Shown here: positions 39,072 to 48,876 of the stretch, one piece after another | Layout of the letters: each line of letters opens with the position of its first letter | Position numbering within the stretch: position 1 is the first letter of the stretch | NCBI RefSeq assembly: GCF_011058165.1 | Contig: NZ_JAALEG010000008.1 | Location: 1 to 64,000 of the forward strand | Direction of reading: 5' to 3' | From: Rhodococcus aetherivorans | GTDB taxonomy: Bacteria > Actinomycetota > Actinomycetes > Mycobacteriales > Mycobacteriaceae | Length of the DNA: 64,000 nucleotides | Program-made: the position numbers and the translations under genes | The notes under the pieces: generated by a model | What the model saw: only the letters and a program-made list of their open reading frames with translations | Databases searched by the model: none | What the model was told of the DNA's origin: nothing

Positions 39072-39232
39072 CGCTCCTACGGTGTGGGCCTTCGCGTGGC
39101 CCCTACAGCCTAGGCCGGGCTCCCCGTCGCCCGGTTCTCAGGTTGGGGTGGCAGACTCGATCCGGCTCGAGCCGGGTTCCAGCGGCGACGCTGGGACCGG
39201 CAACGACGATCGGTTACGGGAGGACTACTGCA

Positions 39233-40108
39233 GTGCCGAGCAACGCACAGCGGCGCCAGGCCGCCAAACGCAAACTCGAGCGGCAACTCGAACGGCGGGC
39301 ACAGCGGGCGCGCAAGCGCCGCCAGCTGACCATCGGTCTGTCGGCGCTCGGTGTGGCCGCGGTCGTCGCGGCGGGCGTCGGCATCTGGGTGCTCGGCCGC
39401 GGCGGCGACGACGCCGCCTCCACCGCGGCGTCGGAGACGACCGACCCGGCGCAGACCGAGTTCGCGGCGCTGCCCGCGGGCCGGTCGGAACCGCTGCCCG
39501 AATCGGTGAACTGTGCGTACCCGCCCGGCGGCGAACCGGCCAGGCCGGTGCAGCCGCCGCGCACCGACGGCATCCTCACCACCGGCGAGGGCAATACCGA
39601 CATCAGTGTCAGTGTGGAGACCACCCAGGGCAACATCGGCCTGGTCCTGCACAACGACACCTCCCCGTGCACGGTCAACAACTTCCTGTCCCTGGCGTCG
39701 CAGGGGTACTTCGACGACACCGCCTGCCACCGCCTGACCACGTCCGACTCGCTCGCCGTGCTGCAGTGCGGCGACCCGACCGGCACCGGCGCCGGCGGCC
39801 CCGGCTACCAGTTCGCCAACGAGTTCCCCACCGACCAGTACGCGCCCGAGGATCCGGCGGCCACGCAGCCGCTGACGTACCCGCGCGGCACCGTCGCGAT
39901 GGCCAACGCCGGCGCCGGCACCAACGGCAGCCAGTTCTTCCTCGTGTACGGCGACTCGATCCTGCCGCCGCAGTACACCGTGTTCGGCACCATCGACGAG
40001 ACCGGCCTGGCGACCCTCGACACGGTCGCCGCCGCCGGGGTCGAGGGCGGCGGCCAGGACGGCGCGCCGGCCCAGCCGATCTCCCTGACCAGTGTGAGGA
40101 TGGACTGA
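39233..40108 (+). CDS. ppiB: Membrane-anchored cyclophilin-type peptidyl-prolyl isomerase (PpiB)
   Basis: A 291-residue protein matching M. tuberculosis PpiB (Rv2582). The basic N-terminus QRRQAAKRKLERQLERRA is followed by one membrane helix (about residues 36-56) and an extracytoplasmic cyclophilin domain from about 115. The catalytic Arg is in CHRLTTS, with LQCGDPTGTG, ANAGAGTNGSQFFLVY and YTVFGTI around the active site. It catalyses proline isomerisation in exported proteins. The GTG at 39233 follows GGGAGG. It overlaps the next, paralogous gene by 1 nt (TGATG). Confidence 0.92.
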   Translation: MPSNAQRRQAAKRKLERQLERRAQRARKRRQLTIGLSALGVAAVVAAGVGIWVLGRGGDDAASTAASETTDPAQTEFAALPAGRSEPLPESVNCAYPPGGEPARPVQPPRTDGILTTGEGNTDISVSVETTQGNIGLVLHNDTSPCTVNNFLSLASQGYFDDTACHRLTTSDSLAVLQCGDPTGTGAGGPGYQFANEFPTDQYAPEDPAATQPLTYPRGTVAMANAGAGTNGSQFFLVYGDSILPPQYTVFGTIDETGLATLDTVAAAGVEGGGQDGAPAQPISLTSVRMD

Positions 40109-40902
40109 TGACCCGTACCCGATCCGGCGCTGCCCGGGCCGCCGTGGCCGGGGTCGGTGTGGCGCTGCTGCTCACCGCCTGCTCCGGCGACCCGGACGAC
40201 GGGTCCGCGACGTCCACGTCGAGCACCGCGGCCTCGGCACCGACGTCCGCACCGTCGCTGTCCGACTTCCCGGCCCTGCCCGCCCAGCGGGCCGAGCCGC
40301 TGCCCGATACGGTGAGCTGCGCGTACCCGTCCGACGGGCGACCGGCCGCGAAGCCGGTGCAGCCGCCGCGCGCCGAGGCCGTCCCCACCACCGACACCGA
40401 CGTCACCGTGGCGACCACCCAGGGCGACATCGGGCTGGCCCTGCGGGGCGAGCTGTCCCCGTGCACCGTCGGCAGCTTCCTGTCGCTGGCCTCCCAGGGG
40501 TATTTCGACGACACCGACTGCCACCGGTTGACGACCGACCCGACGCTGTCGGTGCTGCAGTGCGGCGACCCCACCGCCACGGGTACCGGCGGACCGGGCT
40601 ACGAGTTCGCCAACGAGTTCCCCACCGACCAGTACGCGGCCGGAGATCCGCAGGCGCAGAATCCGATGATCTACCCACGGGGCACGCTCGCGATGGCCAA
40701 TGCCGGCCCCGGCACGAACGGCAGCCAGTTCTTCCTGGTCTACGGCGATTCGATCCTGCCGCCGCAGTACACCGTGTTCGGCACCATCGACGAGACCGGC
40801 CTGGCGACCCTCGACGAGATCGCCGCGGCCGGGGTGGACGGCGGCGGACCCGACGGACCACCGGCGGCGCCGACGACGCTGACCGCCGTCCGCACGGACT
40901 GA
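40108..40902 (+). CDS. Cyclophilin-type isomerase, lipoprotein paralogue
   Basis: A 264-residue lipoprotein. The signal peptide ends in the lipobox LLTAC (Cys about 26); after a Ser/Thr/Ala linker comes a cyclophilin domain about 70 percent identical by eye to the upstream paralogue, with CHRLTTD, LQCGDPTATG, NGSQFFLVY and YTVFGTI. The catalytic Arg is kept, so it should be active at the outer face of the membrane. The 1-nt overlap implies coupling with ppiB. A strong hairpin follows. It is a tandem duplicate that swapped the membrane helix for a lipid anchor. Confidence 0.9.
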   Translation: MTRTRSGAARAAVAGVGVALLLTACSGDPDDGSATSTSSTAASAPTSAPSLSDFPALPAQRAEPLPDTVSCAYPSDGRPAAKPVQPPRAEAVPTTDTDVTVATTQGDIGLALRGELSPCTVGSFLSLASQGYFDDTDCHRLTTDPTLSVLQCGDPTATGTGGPGYEFANEFPTDQYAAGDPQAQNPMIYPRGTLAMANAGPGTNGSQFFLVYGDSILPPQYTVFGTIDETGLATLDEIAAAGVDGGGPDGPPAAPTTLTAVRTD

Positions 40903-40917
40903 TTCTGCGCGTCTCCC

Positions 40918-40951
40918 AACGCCCCGCCCACCCGCCGGTGGGCGGGGCGTT
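40918..40951. terminator. Terminator hairpin after second cyclophilin gene
   Basis: AACGCCCCGCCCAC and its exact complement flank a 6-nt loop, 15 bp after the stop codon at 40902. It should isolate ppiB and its paralogue from the third cyclophilin gene. Confidence 0.8.
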
Positions 40952-41008
40952 CGCGTCCCCGCCGCCGGCAGGGGTCTGTCGGATTGTGACGGGATCGTCT
41001 ACTGTGCC

Positions 41009-41809
41009 GTGTCTGTGACCTCAGGTACCTCCATTGCTGCGCGCCTGGCCGCGACGCTCGGCGCAGCACTCGCGGCTGCGGCGTGTGCCGCTTCCGACAC
41101 CGGGCCCGCCCCTGCCGCGCTGCGGGCGACGACCACCGCGGCCGCCACTTCCCCCGGGTTCGACCCGTCCGCCTATGTTGCGATGCCGCCGCGGCCGGAA
41201 CCGGCGGCCGCCACCGTCGCCTGCGCGTTCCGTGCCGCCGGGCCGGCCGCGAGGACGGCGACCGTGCCCGCGTCGACGTCCGTGCCCGCGACCGGGACGG
41301 TGGAGCTGACGCTGACGACCTCCGCGGGTCCGGTCCCGCTGGTCCTCGAGCGCGCCGCAGCGCCGTGTGCGGTGCAGAGTTTCGTCGGCCTCGCCCGGCA
41401 GGGCTTCTTCGACGGGACCGAGTGCCATCACGTGACCGACGAACCGGGGATGCAGATGTTCCGGTGCGGCGACCCCACCGGATCCGGGACGGGAGGGCCC
41501 GGCTACACGTTCGCCGACGAGTACCCCGTCACGGTCGTCCGCGGGGAGAACGGCTACCTGCCGTCCCCCGTCGTGTATCCGCGCGGCACCGTCGCGATGG
41601 CCAACGCCGGGCACCGGGACAGCAACGGCAGTCAGTTCCTGCTCGTGTTCGGCGATTCCCTGCTGCAGCCGCAGTATTCGGTGTTCGGCACCGTCGGAGA
41701 ACCCGGCCTGCGGGCGCTCGAGGAGGTCGCCGCGGCGGGCGACGACGGATCGAGTCCCCTGGGCGGTGGGCGCCCCCTGATCCCGATGCGGATCGTCGCG
41801 GTCGGGTGA
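41009..41809 (+). CDS. Degenerate exported cyclophilin-like protein
   Basis: A 266-residue exported protein: signal segment to about residue 27, possible weak lipobox AAAAC. The cyclophilin domain has CGDPTGSGTGGPGYTFADEYP and NSNGSQFLLVFGDSLLQPQYSVFGT. Where the two paralogues have CHRLTT, this one has CHHVTD, so the catalytic Arg is replaced by His; the conserved Gln (LQCGD) is also changed (FRCGD). Proline isomerase activity is therefore doubtful, and it may only bind peptides. It has its own promoter behind the hairpin at 40918-40951 and is convergent with the RiPP exporter, 28 bp apart. GTG 41015 is an alternative start. Confidence 0.82.
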   Translation: MSVTSGTSIAARLAATLGAALAAAACAASDTGPAPAALRATTTAAATSPGFDPSAYVAMPPRPEPAAATVACAFRAAGPAARTATVPASTSVPATGTVELTLTTSAGPVPLVLERAAAPCAVQSFVGLARQGFFDGTECHHVTDEPGMQMFRCGDPTGSGTGGPGYTFADEYPVTVVRGENGYLPSPVVYPRGTVAMANAGHRDSNGSQFLLVFGDSLLQPQYSVFGTVGEPGLRALEEVAAAGDDGSSPLGGGRPLIPMRIVAVG

Positions 41810-41837
41810 GTGCGGCCGGGTGAGTGCGGCCGGCCAC

Positions 41838-43982
41838 CTACCGCGTCTGCAGGGCGACGAGTTCCGCGTACCGCCCGTCCCGGCTCAGCAGTTCGTGATG
41901 GCCGCCCCTTTCGACGATCCTGCCGTCGTCGAGCACGAGAATCACATCTGCGGTGCGGACGGTGCTGAGCCGGTGCGCGATGACGATCCGGGTCTGGCGC
42001 AGCCCTCCCAGCGACGCCACGACCGACGCTTCGGTCGCGGCGTCGAGGGCGCTGGTCGCCTCGTCGAGCAACAGCACCCGGGGCGCGCCGAGCACCGCCC
42101 GCGCAAGCGCGATCCGTTGGCACTGCCCACCGGACAGGCCCGACCCGTCCCGCAGCATCGTCTCGTACCCCATCGGCATGGCGACGATCGCGTCGTGGAT
42201 GTGCGCCAGTTTCGCGGCCTCGACGATGCGGGGGAGGGAGGCCTCCGCCCGTCCCGCGGCGATGTTCTGCGCGACGGTCCCGGTGAACAGGGCGCTGTTC
42301 TGCGTCACCACCCCGAACTGGGCGCGCAGCGAACGGGATTCCAGGTCCGCGGCGTCGTGTCCGTCGAACAGCACCCGTCCCTCCGTCGGCTCGTAGAGTC
42401 CGAGCAGCAGGCGGGCGAGGGTGCTCTTGCCGGAGCCGGACGGTCCCACCAGCGCCACCGTCGACCCGGCGGGGATGTCGCAGTCGATGTCGCGCACCAC
42501 CCACGGCGAGCGCGGGTCGTACCGGAATCCGACACCGCGCAGCGAGATCGCGCCGCTGAGTGCCGGGGCGGGCCGCACGCTCCGGCCGTGCTGTTCGACG
42601 TCGCTGTCGACGATGTCCCGCAGCCGGGCCAGGTGGGCCGCCGCGAACTGCAGCCGCTGCAGCACCGACACCACCGAGCCGAGCGGGGCGAGCGCGGCGA
42701 GCGCGATCCCGTTCGCGGCGATCATGGCACCGAGCGTCTGCCGTCCGTCCAGCACGCCGACGACGCCGACGATCATCAGGACCGCGGGCGCCGCGACCCT
42801 GAGACCGGCCACCAGCGATTCGACCACACCCTCGAGGCGGCCGCTGCGCGACGCCGCGTCCAGGGCGGTGGTGAACAGAGCGTGCCACTGCGCGGCCGCA
42901 GCCGCCTCGGAACCGGAGGCCTTCACCGTCTCGATGCCGTTCACGGTCTCGAGCAGGCGTCCCTCGGCGAGGGCGTGCGCGCGCAACTCCTCCTGACCGA
43001 GCTGACCGACCCGGCGGCCGGTGCCCACGATCAGGACGATCTGCACCGTCGCGAGCACCATCAGCGTGACGCCGAGCATCGGCGCCCACCACAGCAGCAG
43101 AGCGAGGTACGTCAGCGCCAACGGCCCGTCGAGCACCGCCGCCACGACGGGTCCGGTGAGCAGCTCCCGAATGGCCCCGACGCTCGAGACCCGCTGCACC
43201 ACGTCACTGGTTCCCCGGCGAGCGAAGTATGCATACGGCAATGCCAGCAGGTGCGCGACGGCGGCGCCGGTGAGCTCACCGTCGGCGCGCCGGCGCAGCG
43301 CCTCCAGCATCCGGCTGCGCACCACCCCGACCGCACCGTGCGCAAGGCACGCGACGACCGTCGCACCGACCACGGCGTACAGCAGCGGGCGGTCGGCGCT
43401 CGGCAGGACCCGGTCCACCAGAATCGCCGAGACCACCGGAAGCGTCATCCCGATCGCCTGCAACGCGATCGAGGCCACCACGACCGACGCGAGCAGTGCG
43501 CGGTGGCCGTGCAGGAACCGGGCCGGCATCGTTCGTCGCCGGGAGGCGGGCAGGGCCGGCGGCGGATAGACCGACGGGTCGCCGGGGCCGAACTCGATGC
43601 TCACGCCCGAGTACCCGTCGCGGAACTGTGCCCGGGTCAGGCGCCGGCGCCCCCGCGCCGGATCGACGATGTGCACGTGCCGCTCCGTGCACCGTTCGAC
43701 CACCACGAAATGGTTGCCGTCCCAGTGCACGACGGCGGGCAGCTGTGCACCGCCCCCGGCGACGGCGTCGGCGGAGCGGCCGAAGGCGCGGACGTCGAGC
43801 CCGTGGCCGCGGGCACATCGCACGAGCGCCAGGGCGGTGAGTCCGTCGCGGGAAACCCCCAGCTCGTCGACGAGGTCCGCGACGCCGCGTGGGACGCCGA
43901 AGTAGGCGAAGATCATCGCCAGGCACGCCGCGCCGCAATCGGACATCCCGGTCTGAGCGAGCGGCCGGATGCGGCGCGTCAC
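41838..43982 (-). CDS. Peptidase-containing ABC transporter (C39) of the RiPP cluster
   Basis: A 714-residue bifunctional exporter. Residues 1-135 are a C39 protease: Gln10 and Cys16 in QTGMSDCGAACLAMI, His in HWDGNHFVVVE, Asp in VDPARG. About five or six membrane helices follow (residues 155-440). The ATPase has Walker A GPSGSGKST, Q-loop VVTQNSALF, signature LSGGQCQRIALARA, Walker B VLLLDEATSAL and switch IVIAHRLS. Known C39 exporters cut the leader after a Gly-Gly and export the core, and the precursor at 46176-46331 has such a site. The GTG start overlaps the upstream gene by 4 nt. It is the last gene of the cluster. Confidence 0.93.
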   Translation of the reverse strand: MTRRIRPLAQTGMSDCGAACLAMIFAYFGVPRGVADLVDELGVSRDGLTALALVRCARGHGLDVRAFGRSADAVAGGGAQLPAVVHWDGNHFVVVERCTERHVHIVDPARGRRRLTRAQFRDGYSGVSIEFGPGDPSVYPPPALPASRRRTMPARFLHGHRALLASVVVASIALQAIGMTLPVVSAILVDRVLPSADRPLLYAVVGATVVACLAHGAVGVVRSRMLEALRRRADGELTGAAVAHLLALPYAYFARRGTSDVVQRVSSVGAIRELLTGPVVAAVLDGPLALTYLALLLWWAPMLGVTLMVLATVQIVLIVGTGRRVGQLGQEELRAHALAEGRLLETVNGIETVKASGSEAAAAAQWHALFTTALDAASRSGRLEGVVESLVAGLRVAAPAVLMIVGVVGVLDGRQTLGAMIAANGIALAALAPLGSVVSVLQRLQFAAAHLARLRDIVDSDVEQHGRSVRPAPALSGAISLRGVGFRYDPRSPWVVRDIDCDIPAGSTVALVGPSGSGKSTLARLLLGLYEPTEGRVLFDGHDAADLESRSLRAQFGVVTQNSALFTGTVAQNIAAGRAEASLPRIVEAAKLAHIHDAIVAMPMGYETMLRDGSGLSGGQCQRIALARAVLGAPRVLLLDEATSALDAATEASVVASLGGLRQTRIVIAHRLSTVRTADVILVLDDGRIVERGGHHELLSRDGRYAELVALQTR

Positions 43983-45058
43983 CGCGGCGTCTTCTCCGCC
44001 TCGCCCCAGAACCATTCGATCCGGGCGGTGCGGCGCCGGTCGGCGAGCCACTCGTCGAACAACCGCCTCGAGGCCTGCTCCAGCAGGTCCGAATCGGACG
44101 CGGCGGCGCGCGAGAGCACCTGTACCACTTCCCATTCCGTTCCGACCGCCCGCGGCGGCAGCAGCGTACCGGGCGCGACCGCATCGGCCAGGCCGGAGCC
44201 GAGGCCGAGGTCGAGGTCGGCCACGGTCCGCTCCATCAGCTCGGCCCCCAGCGGACGGGACGGGGCGACAGCCGTCAGCGCCGCGCCGAACGCGTCGGCC
44301 GTTGTGTCGCAGGTGCGTCGCCGCTCGGCGAACGCGGCGACGAACCGCTCGGCGGCGGCGCGGTCGGCGAAGCGCACGCGGGCGATCCGGAGCCGGTCGT
44401 ACGTCGATCGGTGCGCCGCGCACCACGAGTCGACGCGGTCGACCGTCACCCGCGTGCGCAGCGCGGCAACGGCGGCCTCGCGTGCCACCATCTCCTCGAG
44501 CGCCGCGTGGTCGAGGTGCCGCCGTGCCATCCATGCAGCGGTCGCCGCCGGGGTCAGCAGGCCGCGCGCGCGACGGAAGGCGTCCATGGCGTCCTGCAGC
44601 TCACCGTCGGTCAGCGTCACCGGGCTCTCGGCGAGTTCCTGCTGGACGAGACACACGTCGACGAGTCGGTCGAGCAGGGCCGTCTGCTCCCACATCACGT
44701 CCAGATACGCCATCGCGTGCTGGATGTCGAGCGCCTCGCCGTTGACGCGTAGCAGCATCGATTCGGCGCTGCGTTGCGCGCCGCGCAACATCCACGGCAC
44801 CTCCGACGGCGGCGCCCAGGACAGCGTGACGGTGCCACCGCGGGGCCCGGAGACGAGCAGGCCGAACTGCACGGTGTCCCCGTAGGCTTCCCGGTGCCGG
44901 AGCAGGCGAAGGCGCAGTCCGGGGTGCTCCGCCCGCAGGGCCGCCAGCAGTTCCTCCGCGGACCCGGCCGCTACCGGGTCGGTGTTGAGGCGCGCGAGCA
45001 GAGTCAGCGCCTGCCCGAGAGCAGCGTCGTCGAGCGCCGCGCCGGCCGGGGCGATCAT
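43979..45058 (-). CDS. PpiC/SurA-related putative peptide maturation protein
   Basis: A 359-residue, probably cytoplasmic protein: no signal peptide, mostly helical, ending IEWFWGEAEK. It resembles the PpiC-related family described as putative peptide maturation system protein, which occurs beside RiPP precursors and exporters, though I recognise it only by overall character (Cys-poor, VCLVQQELAESPVTLTDGEL, AALTAVAPSRPLGAELM). It may chaperone the precursor or present it to the ligase or exporter. Translation is coupled at both ends: ATGA overlap with the ATP-grasp gene, GTGA overlap with the exporter gene. Confidence 0.6.
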   Translation of the reverse strand: MIAPAGAALDDAALGQALTLLARLNTDPVAAGSAEELLAALRAEHPGLRLRLLRHREAYGDTVQFGLLVSGPRGGTVTLSWAPPSEVPWMLRGAQRSAESMLLRVNGEALDIQHAMAYLDVMWEQTALLDRLVDVCLVQQELAESPVTLTDGELQDAMDAFRRARGLLTPAATAAWMARRHLDHAALEEMVAREAAVAALRTRVTVDRVDSWCAAHRSTYDRLRIARVRFADRAAAERFVAAFAERRRTCDTTADAFGAALTAVAPSRPLGAELMERTVADLDLGLGSGLADAVAPGTLLPPRAVGTEWEVVQVLSRAAASDSDLLEQASRRLFDEWLADRRRTARIEWFWGEAEKTPR

Positions 45059-46080
45059 GCGGGCACCTCCTGGACGGCGGGGCGCCGGGAGCGGTGGGCA
45101 CCGTCGAGCAGCAGCTCGCACAGTGCGTCGGAGATGGGCAGACCCGTCGCGTCCTCGATCCACAACCACTGTCCCGACGGGTTGATCTCGAGGAACACGT
45201 AGCGGCCGTCCGGAGTGAGTATGAGATCGATTGTCCCGTACTGCAATTCGAGCTCAGCCACCAGACTGCGGCACAACGCGGCGAGCGCGGCCGGCAACTC
45301 GTGCCGGCTGTAGCGGGTCGTGGAAGGGTCGTAGCTGCGCCAGTCGAGCCGCGTGTGGTTGCTGTCCTGGCTGTGGATGGCGGCGCCGAGGACCCGCTGC
45401 CCGACCACCGTCACCCGCACCTCGATCTGTTTGGGCACATAGCCCTGCACGATCATCGGGCACAGGCGCATCGCCTCCGCGTACCCCAGGTCCGTCGTCG
45501 TGACAGGCTCGCACATGCGGAAGTAGCCGTCGTCACCGTCGATCAGGAACGGCCGGTCGAGCGGTTTGCTGATCACCTGCCCCTCGTGCCGGTCCCAGAA
45601 ATCGAGGAACTCGTCCGGGGAGGTGGTCACGATCGTGGGCGGAAGCTCGAACCCGAGACGGCCGGCCAGGGTGAGCTGGGCGGTCTTGCGGGCCGCCTGC
45701 CGGATCGCGGCCCGCGTTCCCGGCACCGCGAGACAGTCCAGATCGTCCCAGAGCGCGGAGGTCATTGCCTCGCATTCCCTTTCGACGTACTCGCGGACCG
45801 CCGGGGCGGTGACCTCCGGGTGCGCCCGCGGGTTGCGTGGGCGGCGGAACCAGACCGTGTCGACGGCGGACAGGTCGATCCGCCCACCGCGGTGGTCGAG
45901 GGTGCGGCGGACCGCACCGCCGGCGGTGTAGCCGACGGAGATCGACGCGTGGACAGGAAAATCGGCGGGGTCGAACACGACGACCCGGGCGTCGCGCCGG
46001 CGCAACAGGTCGACGACGTGGTCTGCGTGCGGGTCACCCGGCTGGGTGAGCACCAGGATGCGGGCGGGATGCGCGCTCAT
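45055..46080 (-). CDS. ATP-grasp ribosomal peptide maturase (graspetide-type ligase)
   Basis: A 341-residue ATP-grasp enzyme of the MvdD/TgmB-like group. The N-terminus RILVLTQPGDPHADHVVDLL and DTVWFRRPRNPRAHP are characteristic. The ATP-grasp core includes GQVISKPLDRP, MIVQGYVPKQIEVRVTVVG and the metal-binding FLEINPSGQWLWIE. Known members join Asp/Glu side chains to Thr/Ser or Lys side chains of a precursor, forming omega-esters or omega-amides. Its likely substrate is the peptide encoded 95 bp upstream. ATG 46080 has GAGGAAC upstream. It overlaps the PpiC-related gene by 4 nt. Confidence 0.88.
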   Translation of the reverse strand: MSAHPARILVLTQPGDPHADHVVDLLRRRDARVVVFDPADFPVHASISVGYTAGGAVRRTLDHRGGRIDLSAVDTVWFRRPRNPRAHPEVTAPAVREYVERECEAMTSALWDDLDCLAVPGTRAAIRQAARKTAQLTLAGRLGFELPPTIVTTSPDEFLDFWDRHEGQVISKPLDRPFLIDGDDGYFRMCEPVTTTDLGYAEAMRLCPMIVQGYVPKQIEVRVTVVGQRVLGAAIHSQDSNHTRLDWRSYDPSTTRYSRHELPAALAALCRSLVAELELQYGTIDLILTPDGRYVFLEINPSGQWLWIEDATGLPISDALCELLLDGAHRSRRPAVQEVPA

Positions 46081-46175
46081 GAGCTGTTCCTCGGGGCGGA
46101 TCGGATCGGATCGGTCGACGGACGAGCGCCGGGTGGGCGAGGCGAGCCGCCTCCCCACCCGGCGTCCTCGGTCCG

Positions 46176-46331
46176 TCAGAAGTCCTGATCGGTACCGACC
46201 GCGCCGGTCGACATGTCGATCGTCTTGCTCGACCGATCCTCGCACGCGCGACCGCCGGACACGGTCGCGAGGCGCGCCTCGTCGAGTTCCGCACCCTCGG
46301 CGGAAATGGCGGTGATGACGGTGTTACGCAA
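46176..46331 (-). CDS. RiPP precursor with double-glycine leader (graspetide candidate)
   Basis: A 51-residue peptide starting at TTG 46331, with AGAGGAG 6 nt upstream; no ATG fits. The leader contains AELDEARLATVSGG, the classic double-glycine pattern. The predicted 24-residue core is RACEDRSSKTID followed by MSTGAVGTDQDF. It offers Glu/Asp donors (5) and Ser/Thr/Lys acceptors (8), as an ATP-grasp side-chain ligase needs, and one Cys. It does not carry the TxxxEExxDE-type repeats of microviridins or the plesiocin motif. It is first in the cluster ahead of the ligase, maturation protein and C39 exporter. An 11-bp-period direct repeat lies upstream. Confidence 0.78.
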   Translation of the reverse strand: MRNTVITAISAEGAELDEARLATVSGGRACEDRSSKTIDMSTGAVGTDQDF

Positions 46332-46389
46332 TGCGTTCTCCTCTGTCAGGATGTGCCGGACCGTCCGGCGAGGAGAACGATCGCGCAGC

Positions 46390-46409
46390 GCGCTTAGCAT
46401 GCGCTTAGC
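46390..46409. promoter_or_regulatory. Direct repeat upstream of RiPP precursor
   Basis: GCGCTTAGC at 46390-46398 and again at 46401-46409, an exact 11-bp period, 59 bp upstream of the precursor start. On the coding strand it reads CGCTAAGCGCATGCTAAGCG. This is the layout bound by OmpR-type response regulators and SARP activators, and it shares CGCTAAG with the repeat at 3754-3771. Confidence 0.5.
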
Positions 46410-46478
46410 GTCGGCTGACGGACCGCGACGTGCGGATGGGCGAGGTGGGGTCGCCGATCCTGCTACGCCGCGGACCTT

Positions 46479-48785
46479 CTATGCCGCGGAGGTCACCCGG
46501 TACACGTCGTAGACGCCCTCGACGTTGCGGACGACGTTGAGCACGTGCCCGAGGTGCTTGGGATCGCCCATCTCGAACGTGAAGCGGCTCACCGCGACCC
46601 GGTCGCCGGTCGTGGTCACCGACGCCGAGAGGATGTTCACCTTCTCGTCGGCGAGTGCCTTGGTGACGTCCGAGAGCAGCCGGTGCCGGTCGAGCGCCTC
46701 GATCTGGATGGCCACGAGGAACACCGACGACGGGGACGGCGCCCACTTGACCTCGATGATCCGCTCGGACTGCTGCTGCAGGGATCCGGCGTTGGTGCAG
46801 TCGGTGCGGTGCACGCTCACCGAGCCGGTGCGGGTCACGAAGCCCATGATCTCGTCGCCGGGCACCGGCGTACAGCACTTGGCCAGCTTCGACACCGTGC
46901 CCGGCGCGCCGGGCACGAGGATGCCGGAGTCACCGCTCTGCCGGGACCGGGTCGGAATGGACGACGGGGTGGACCGCTCCGCGAGCTCCTCCTCGACGCC
47001 ACCGACCCCGCCGAGCAGCGCGACGAGGCGCTGCACGACGTGGTGCGCCGAGACATGGTGCTCACCGACCGCGGTGTAGAGCGCCGACACGTCGGCGTAC
47101 CGCAGTTCCTTGGCCACGGCCTGCATCAGGTCCGCGTTCATCAGGCGCTGCAGCGGCAGCCCGACCCGCTTGACCTCCTTGCCGATGGCGTCCTTGCCGG
47201 CCTCGAGCGCCTCCTCGCGGCGTTCCTTCGCGAACCACTGCCGGATCTTGGCCTTCGCGCGCGGCGAGACCACGAACGACTGCCAGTCGCGGCTCGGCCC
47301 GGCATTGGGGTCCTTGGACGTGAAGACCTCGACGACCTCGCCGTTCTCGAGCTTGCGTTCGAGCGCGACGAGCCGGCCGTTGACCCGCGCGCCGATGCAG
47401 CGGTGCCCCACCTCGGTGTGCACGGCGTACGCGAAGTCCACCGGCGTCGACCCGGACGGCAGCGTGATCACGTCGCCCTTGGGGGTGAAGACGAAGATCT
47501 CCTTCACGGCGAGGTCGTAACGCAGCGACTCGAGGAACTCGCCGGGGTCGGCGGCCTCGCGTTGCCAGTCGAGCAACTGCCGCATCCACGCCATGTCGTC
47601 GAGCTCGGCGACGTCGCCCGAGTGTTTGCCCTTGGTCTCCTTGTACCGCCAGTGCGCGGCGATGCCGAACTCGGCGGTGCGGTGCATCTCGCGGGTGCGG
47701 ATCTGCACCTCGAGCGGCTTGCCCTCGGGGCCGATCACGGTGGTGTGCAGCGACTGGTACACGCCGAACCGCGGCTGGGCGATGTAGTCCTTGAACCGGC
47801 CCGCCATCGGCTGCCACAGCGAGTGCACGACGCCCACGGCGGCGTAGCAGTCGCGGATCTCGTTGCACAGGATCCGCACGCCGACCAGGTCGTGGATGTC
47901 GTCGAAGTCGCGGCCCTTGACGATCATCTTCTGGTAGATCGACCAGTAGTGCTTCGGCCGGCCCTCGACGGTGGCATCGATCCGCGACGCTGCGAGCGTC
48001 GCGTTGATCTCGGCGCGGACCTTGGCCAGGTAGGTGTCGCGCGACGGCGCCCGGGTGGCGACGAGCCGCACGATCTCCTCGTACTTCTTCGGGTGCAGGA
48101 TCGCGAAGGACAGGTCCTCGAGCTCCCACTTGACCGTCGCCATGCCGAGACGGTGCGCGAGCGGCGCGATCACCTCGAGGGTCTCGCGCGCCTTGCGGGC
48201 CTGCTTCTCCGGCGGCAGGAAGCGCATGGTGCGCATGTTGTGCAGCCGATCGGCGACCTTGATCACCAGGACCCGGGGGTCGCGCGCCATCGCGATGATC
48301 ATCTTGCGGATGGTCTCGCCCTCGGCGGCGGTGCCGAGCACCACCTTGTCCAGCTTGGTGACGCCGTCGACGAGGTGGGCGACCTCCTCGCCGAACTCGG
48401 CGGTGAGCTGCTCGAGACTGTAACCGGTGTCCTCGACGGTGTCGTGCAGCAGCGCCGCGATCAGCGTCGTGGTGTCCATGCCGAGCTCGGCGAGGATCGT
48501 CGCGACCGCGAGGGGATGGGTGATGTACGGGTCGCCGGACTTGCGCTTCTGCGACGCGTGCCGCTCCTCCGCCACGTCGTAGGCGCGCTGCAGCTCCGAC
48601 AGGTCGGCCTTCGGGTACAGCTCGCGGTGGATCGTGACCAGCGGCTCGAGCACCGGCTTGAGAGTGGTGCCGCGCTGCCCGGTGATGCGGCGCGCCAGCC
48701 GCGCCCGCACCCGGCGGGAGGCCGACGTGGACGCCGAGGTCGGGGTCGGACCGGAATTCTGGGACCGATCAAGATTCTGGGTCAT
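46479..48785 (-). CDS. rel: Bifunctional (p)ppGpp synthetase/hydrolase
   Basis: A 768-residue Rel protein, master of the stringent response. Domains in order: hydrolase HD domain (about 55-210; [12 protein letters not shown] intact), synthetase (about 240-390; [27 protein letters not shown]), TGS (about 420-480), helical/zinc-finger region with [13 protein letters not shown], and a C-terminal ACT domain. Both catalytic centres look intact, as in the single actinobacterial Rel. The ATG at 48785 follows GGGAGG. It lies 91 bp after apt, the usual order in this phylum; the RiPP cluster now sits downstream where ppiB would be next. Confidence 0.97.
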
Positions 48786-48876
48786 GCCCACACCTCCCGT
48801 CGCCGATGCACACCGGACGCACCGCCGCACATTCCTCGTCGTCCGGAACCACCGGCACCTGCGCCAACTCTAGCTC

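Follow-up and report, generated by a model that had tools for sequence, protein, structure and literature searches.

What would be made by the four minus-strand genes (46331-41838) that lie between a rel gene and a convergent cyclophilin-type (ppi) gene in Rhodococcus aetherivorans, and does the product belong to a known kind of graspetide? The genes were analyzed within a stretch of 64,000 nucleotides (the window; assembly GCF_011058165.1, contig NZ_JAALEG010000008.1, positions 1 to 64,000), and the genome assembly comprises 6.43 Mb in 216 contigs. The four adjacent genes encode, in order, a precursor with a Gly-Gly (GG) leader, an ATP-grasp ligase, a PpiC-related protein, and a C39-peptidase ATP-binding cassette (ABC) exporter. 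Ligase and PpiC-related protein are joined by an ATGA overlap (45058), and the latter and the exporter by a GTGA overlap (43982). The order, strand, and overlaps given in the initial annotation agree with the coordinates and the family matches. Very probably, the genes form a rosaritide-type graspetide cluster that depends on a partner protein: a complex would hold the leader, Asp21 and Asp23 of the core would be linked as esters to an SSKT stretch, and a two-lactone peptide would be cut after GG and exported.

Family assignment and comparison with rosaritide

The precursor was matched by TIGR04497 with 105.9 bits (curated cut-off 32, E 7.6e-31) over profile positions 1-50 of 50 and is thus a full-length member of this family. 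The PpiC-related protein, hereafter the partner, scored 512 bits against TIGR04500 (cut-off 180) and likewise belongs to its family. Both are NCBIfam annotation models, TIGR04497 being GRASP_targ_2, a "putative ATP-grasp target RiPP" (ribosomally synthesized and post-translationally modified peptide); no paper naming TIGR04497 or GRASP_targ was found in the literature searched. Pfam ATPgraspMvdD matched the ligase over its cut-off, as did Peptidase_C39, ABC_membrane, and ABC_tran the exporter. The block thereby shows a genetic hallmark of the graspetide class, a microviridin/MvdD-type ATP-grasp ligase adjoining a precursor with a GG-type leader.

The nearest solved relatives of the ligase are 5ig8, 7m4s, 5ig9, and 7mgv, which we take to be MdnB/MdnC (the printed names are only AMdnB and CdnC), and it can be aligned with these microviridin-type ligases along its ATP-grasp motifs and a DWR stretch. 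To our knowledge, the microviridin ligases MvdD and MvdC have not been described as needing a TIGR04500 partner. They have the fold, the ATP-grasp motifs, and the aligned DWR stretch in common with the window ligase, which scores far below their equivalog models, reaching 205 of 475 bits for TIGR04184 (MvdD) and 203 of 425 bits for TIGR04185 (MvdC). An assignment as microviridin equivalog was set aside on account of these scores. The DWR stretch would correspond to the DFR motif named in PMC13097080.

The rosaritide cluster mirABCD of Micromonospora rosaria NRRL 3718 belongs to graspetide group 21 (Carter et al. 2026, PMC13097080). It encodes the precursor MirA, MirB (TIGR04187), MirC (TIGR04500), and MirD (TIGR03796). 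MirB alone was inactive on MirA, MirB with MirC gave mass changes of up to -54 Da, and both co-purify as an active complex, the TIGR04500 protein being essential for the ligase (PMC13097080). Three esters were assigned, Ser8-Asp22, Ser9-Asp26, and Thr11-Asp24, and growth inhibition was not seen (PMC13097080).

The window block shows the four-gene architecture of group 21 including the TIGR04500 protein, with the same order of precursor, TIGR04187-type ligase, TIGR04500 partner, and TIGR03796-type exporter, a GG leader, SSxT donor positions, and DxD acceptors near the C-terminus. It differs from rosaritide in its shorter core of 24 residues, which has no proline and carries Gly in place of the acceptor Asp22, as well as in its insertion between rel and ppi and its moderate identity to MirA-like relatives. 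The initial annotation had put forward a candidate new cluster and had named database matches to a characterized group as evidence to the contrary; such matches were largely found for precursor and ligase. With TIGR04497 and TIGR04500 over their cut-offs and the gene order of the rosaritide cluster, the block is, judged by these matches, no new graspetide group and is related to rosaritide with a predicted ring pattern that is not identical. The proposal that an accessory block encodes a graspetide-type route, with the product cut at GG and exported, is well supported. No paper on the window cluster was found, and rosaritide and group 21 graspetides turned up in PMC13097080 alone, subscription literature lying outside the search. 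A four-gene, helper-dependent cross-linking pathway that has stood on an experimental footing only since 2026 would hereby be extended to Rhodococcus.

By analogy with MirB and MirC, ligase and partner would form a complex that holds the 51-residue precursor by its leader, and the window ligase would need its partner in the same way. The ligase would activate Asp21 and Asp23 of the core and join them as esters to two of Ser7, Ser8, and Thr10, with chemistry and pairing modeled on rosaritide. As GG and C39 suggest, the C39 domain of the exporter may cut after Gly-Gly, and the ABC domains may export the 24-residue peptide with its two lactones. Any biological role, e.g., protease inhibition as in the precedent of the microviridins, can only be guessed.

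Core peptide and predicted ring pattern

A cut after GG would divide the precursor into the leader MRNTVITAISAEGAELDEARLATVSGG and the core RACEDRSSKTIDMSTGAVGTDQDF. The 24-residue core carries SSKT at core positions 7-10 and follows the pattern SSxT...DxDF in the alignment; the earlier statement that it lacks known graspetide motifs did not hold. The alignment comprised 15 SS-type precursors including that of the window, with L053, L062, and L139 left out as near copies. In it, Ser7, Ser8, and Thr10 of SSKT fall on the three donor positions of rosaritide (Ser8, Ser9, and Thr11), and Asp21 and Asp23 on the acceptors Asp24 and Asp26. Since only two of the three acceptors (Asp22, Asp24, and Asp26) are kept, the acceptor pattern of rosaritide is incomplete and the window peptide was not filed as a three-ring rosaritide. 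Because Gly replaces the acceptor Asp22, two lactones and not three are predicted, with esters from SSKT hydroxyls to Asp21 and Asp23 (-36.02 Da, core mass 2553.12), and the window peptide probably has fewer rings than rosaritide. The calculated monoisotopic mass of the unmodified core is 2589.14 Da, and three rings would bring it to 2535.11. For the R. maanshanensis core, which has Val as third donor residue, no more than two rings are predicted.

The third donor and the Asp22 position occur together as Thr with Asp in 4 rows, as Val without Asp in 10, and as Thr without Asp in the window alone, a pattern that does not represent 15 independent events as the rows are kin. In rosaritide, Thr11 is linked to Asp24 and Ser8 to Asp22; the other rows lose both the third donor and Asp22, and the remaining pairs would therefore need to be re-matched. 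We further propose, and consider the chances evenly balanced, that the window encodes a two-lactone, partner-dependent graspetide that arose by loss of the acceptor Asp22 with rewired pairing, in which Thr10 would be an idle relic of a three-ring ancestor or one serine would be idle. More widely, this proposal holds that one leader and TIGR04500 partner serve at least six core classes without a common ring pattern, so that partner and leader, and not the core, would stay constant while the cross-linking platform evolves. Because the window core is a natural variant with one acceptor missing, the third donor kept, and no proline, it lends itself to testing what determines the number and pairing of rings. 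It also allows a test of whether the partner works as a chaperone or carries the substrate, rather than acting as an isomerase.

Evidence against the assignment and alternative readings

Several observations weigh against an assignment to the rosaritide kind. The place of the rosaritide acceptor Asp22 is taken by Gly19 in the window. The ligase reached 247 bits against TIGR04187, the best of the models listed, and stays outside this family by its cut-off of 350, while the exporter reached 540 bits against TIGR03796, the best among 25 of 194 matches listed, and stays outside by a cut-off of 853. Of the family models named in the initial annotation, TIGR04500 was thus recovered, TIGR04187 matched below its cut-off, and TIGR04186 was not among the precursor matches at E<=1, where TIGR04497 appeared instead. 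MirA-D entered the comparison only through the gene order and the core positions named in the paper. Identity to the MirA-like clade is modest, with about 43-47% for the ligase, about 35-42% for the matched part of the partner, and 34-36% for the exporter. In favor of the assignment, four loci of genus g32 in family f2, another family of the same order (L024, L138, L139, and L142), carry the core LPRNGAGSSKTIDDIPGGGRPDTDTDF(D). Of the 14 positions of the MirA core that PMC13097080 names, 13 are matched by the core of L024, LPRNGAGSSKTIDDIPGGGRPDTDTDFD, position 25 being Thr and not Ser, and the f2/g32 core also fits the trypsin cut after residue 3 of the MirA core reported there. The window core aligns with the L024 core at SSKTID and TDxDF.

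A three-ring product is a possible, though rather doubtful, alternative to the predicted two lactones. Ser7, Ser8, and Thr10 would all be used, and Asp12, Asp5, Glu4, or the terminal carboxylate would serve as third acceptor. Carboxylates are indeed available in the window core, and Thr10 is kept, while the 10 other rows without an Asp22 equivalent have Val. Against this, Asp12 lies two residues from Thr10, and the Asp residues next to the donors of rosaritide were not acceptors (PMC13097080). It is improbable that the cluster is decayed or silent and yields no product. The TTG start of the precursor and the patchy distribution of TIGR04500 (4 of 18 genomes within the genus and, over cut-off, 7 of 401 within the family) would fit such decay, but the four frames are intact and overlapping, the precursor scores highly against TIGR04497, donors and acceptors are kept, and so are the ligase motifs.

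The remaining two alternatives concern single enzymes. A role of the partner as a genuine prolyl isomerase in product folding is very unlikely. It is suggested by the name of the family (PpiC_rel_mature) and a sub-threshold SurA_N_3 match (E 0.025), the only such match in a Pfam scan that gave no Rotamase match at E<=1. Since the core has no proline and a Rotamase match is missing, an isomerase role is disfavored for the window product; proline is also absent from the cores of the four relatives of nearest type (L042, L043, L044, and L075). The label "PpiC-related" is therefore a family name and should not be taken to mean isomerase activity. No relative of the partner was found in the PDB by sequence at E<=1. 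MirC was described as having an N-domain with weak similarity to RiPP recognition elements, together with a chaperone domain of the SurA type but no peptidyl-prolyl isomerase domain (PMC13097080), and Makarova et al. 2022 (PMC8939145) list TIGR04500 as cluster 145 among ATP-grasp neighbors and predict that it modifies graspetides. Slimmer still are the chances that the ligase does not cross-link side chains and instead releases a free acyl phosphate or adds amino acids like the distant RimK-type enzymes. Its RimK-family matches are weak and are far outscored by microviridin-type models, and its nearest solved relatives are microviridin-type ligases. A cross-linking ligase with a TIGR04500 partner remains the preferred reading.

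Relatives and distribution

In the named genomes scanned, a TIGR04500 relative was found at 78 loci. An ATP-grasp gene adjoins the partner in 59 of them; among these 59, a C39-ABC exporter is also present in 49 and a GG-leader precursor was detected by pattern in 54. The pattern missed five loci (L075, L089, L091, L094, and L098), where inspection by eye recovered a precursor at L075 and L091, several candidates at L089, and none at L094 and L098. Leaders are alike across loci (ELxE..L...GG) and cores unlike, and on this comparison the same kind of leader and partner is serving several unrelated core classes in other actinomycetes. New ring topologies can be sought in this wider set, where leaders are conserved and cores are not related.

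In a tree of 73 ligases, which carried a long-branch warning, five of six core labels each fell on one side of a branch, and the SS type was split over three parts of the tree, which would fit either a single gain with two losses or convergence; core classes were labeled by eye, and 17 of the 73 rows were unlabeled. The window ligase forms a clade with those of R. maanshanensis, R. triatomae, and Rhodococcus sp. RD6.2 (support 99/86), whose precursors have the same core type. These three (L042, L043, and L044) and Blastococcus litoris (L075) carry the same four genes and a core SSxV-ID...GTDADF. Unlike the window, they have Val for Thr10 and lie at another chromosomal place; none of the 78 loci gave a rel match. 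TIGR04500 genes over cut-off are uncommon: 7 of 401 genomes have one at the level of the family, 15 of 394 at that of the class, and 6 of 300 in family f2. Plasmids gave one partial partner match (Herpetosiphon aurantiacus pHAU01), and viral contigs no partner relative, as none of 10 stretches matching a pattern was confirmed.

Further observations were made among the relatives. More than one precursor (two to four), with leaders that are nearly the same and cores that differ, is present at L051, L054, L060, L066, L071, L063, L067, L070, L078, and L081. One core class, AKSQVI.I...H(S/T)HTSGDSN (L052, L056, L057, L069, L072, L074 and kin), is histidine-rich with a single Asp in most members; with this single candidate acceptor, the peptide could apparently form no more than one cross-link, barring a contribution from other residues. 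The ligase frame of L046 (Rhodococcus sp. JCM 9791 record, labeled Cyanobacteriota in the tree taxonomy) matches partly, with 57% over a short stretch, and its unusual letter make-up perhaps reflects draft-sequence errors. In Streptosporangiaceae, distant TIGR04500-like open reading frames (ORFs) for which no ATP-grasp gene was found follow genes that resemble pyruvate dehydrogenase E1 and E2 by eye. This holds for 8 of the 10 loci looked at (L100, L102, L104, L105, L106, L108, L110, and L119, and not L099 and L116). At L098 a divergent ATP-grasp gene (29%) still lies beside the partner, with an E2-like end upstream. The Streptosporangiaceae ORFs perhaps go back to a graspetide pair that was retained next to a housekeeping operon.

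Chromosomal place

The rel-ppi gap of the window spans 41810-46478 (4669 bases). In all 17 other genomes searched in the genus, the rel stop and the convergent ppi stop are 9-91 bases apart with nothing between them, including G006, whose rel protein is the closest to that of the window (98%) and whose site is empty. Because rel and ppi are near-adjacent in 17/17 congeners, the four-gene block is accessory, which confirms the insertion between ppi and rel that had been claimed for it. A TIGR04500 gene occurs in 4 of 18 genomes of the genus, including that of the window; in the other three (G009, G010, and G011) it lies on a different contig from rel, and the cores differ from the window core.

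GC content is about 0.69-0.75 across cluster and flanks alike and shows no mark of foreign origin, and a repeat search of the window gave nothing resembling flanking repeats or a target duplication. The block as a mobile element was set aside, with no integrase or transposase seen among the four genes, although no search aimed at these was made. The long direct repeats found in the window sit in the tandem ppi genes (39143-41809, plus strand). These cyclophilin-like genes are clearly kin, with repeats of 125 and 120 nucleotides at 78% and 73% identity, and each has a hydrophobic N-terminal stretch by eye. The ppi flank gene gave weak matches to PpiA and PpiB models, all below cut-off.

Features and upstream region

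Table 1. Coordinates of the cluster, its upstream repeat, and its flanking genes in the window.
Feature	Position	Strand	Remarks
Precursor peptide	46176..46331	-	51 amino acids, TTG start; TIGR04497 match; aligned with 14 related precursors
ATP-grasp ligase (graspetide synthetase)	45055..46080	-	341 amino acids; TIGR04187 below cut-off, Pfam ATPgraspMvdD over cut-off
TIGR04500 protein, MirC-like partner (PpiC_rel_mature)	43979..45058	-	359 amino acids; TIGR04500 over cut-off
C39 peptidase - ABC exporter (PCAT)	41838..43982	-	714 amino acids, GTG start; Pfam domains over cut-off
11-bp direct repeat CTAAGCGCATGCTAAGCGC upstream of precursor, possible regulator site	46390..46408	-	exact match
Flank rel (RelA/SpoT family)	46479..48830	-	TIGR00691, 914 bits
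Flank cyclophilin-type (ppi) gene, convergent	41009..41809	+	PpiA-model match 1.9e-11, below cut-off

A search of 46100-46600 gave neither a sigma-70-like promoter nor a terminator. The repeat CTAAGCGC is present twice upstream of the precursor (46390-46408, exact match), and TGCAAGTGGAT-like 11-bp direct repeats also occur upstream of the precursors of R. triatomae (L043) and RD6.2 (L044). When 25 lags were compared across 52 upstream regions (without shuffle control), the mean was highest at lag 11, with 14/18 reached in three regions only, two of them near copies. A regulator binding these direct repeats one helical turn apart would be a guess.

A second, remote TIGR04187-like ATP-grasp gene is located elsewhere in the genome of the window (G000:C168:27345-28211, L153; 105 bits, cut-off 350). 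It is followed by a SagB-type peptide dehydrogenase (TIGR03605, 106 bits, above its cut-off of 78.4) and preceded by a small ORF that ends in TRPGCKGCHGG and matches no NCBIfam model. This locus resembles the SagB-bearing "branch 6" loci described in PMC8939145.

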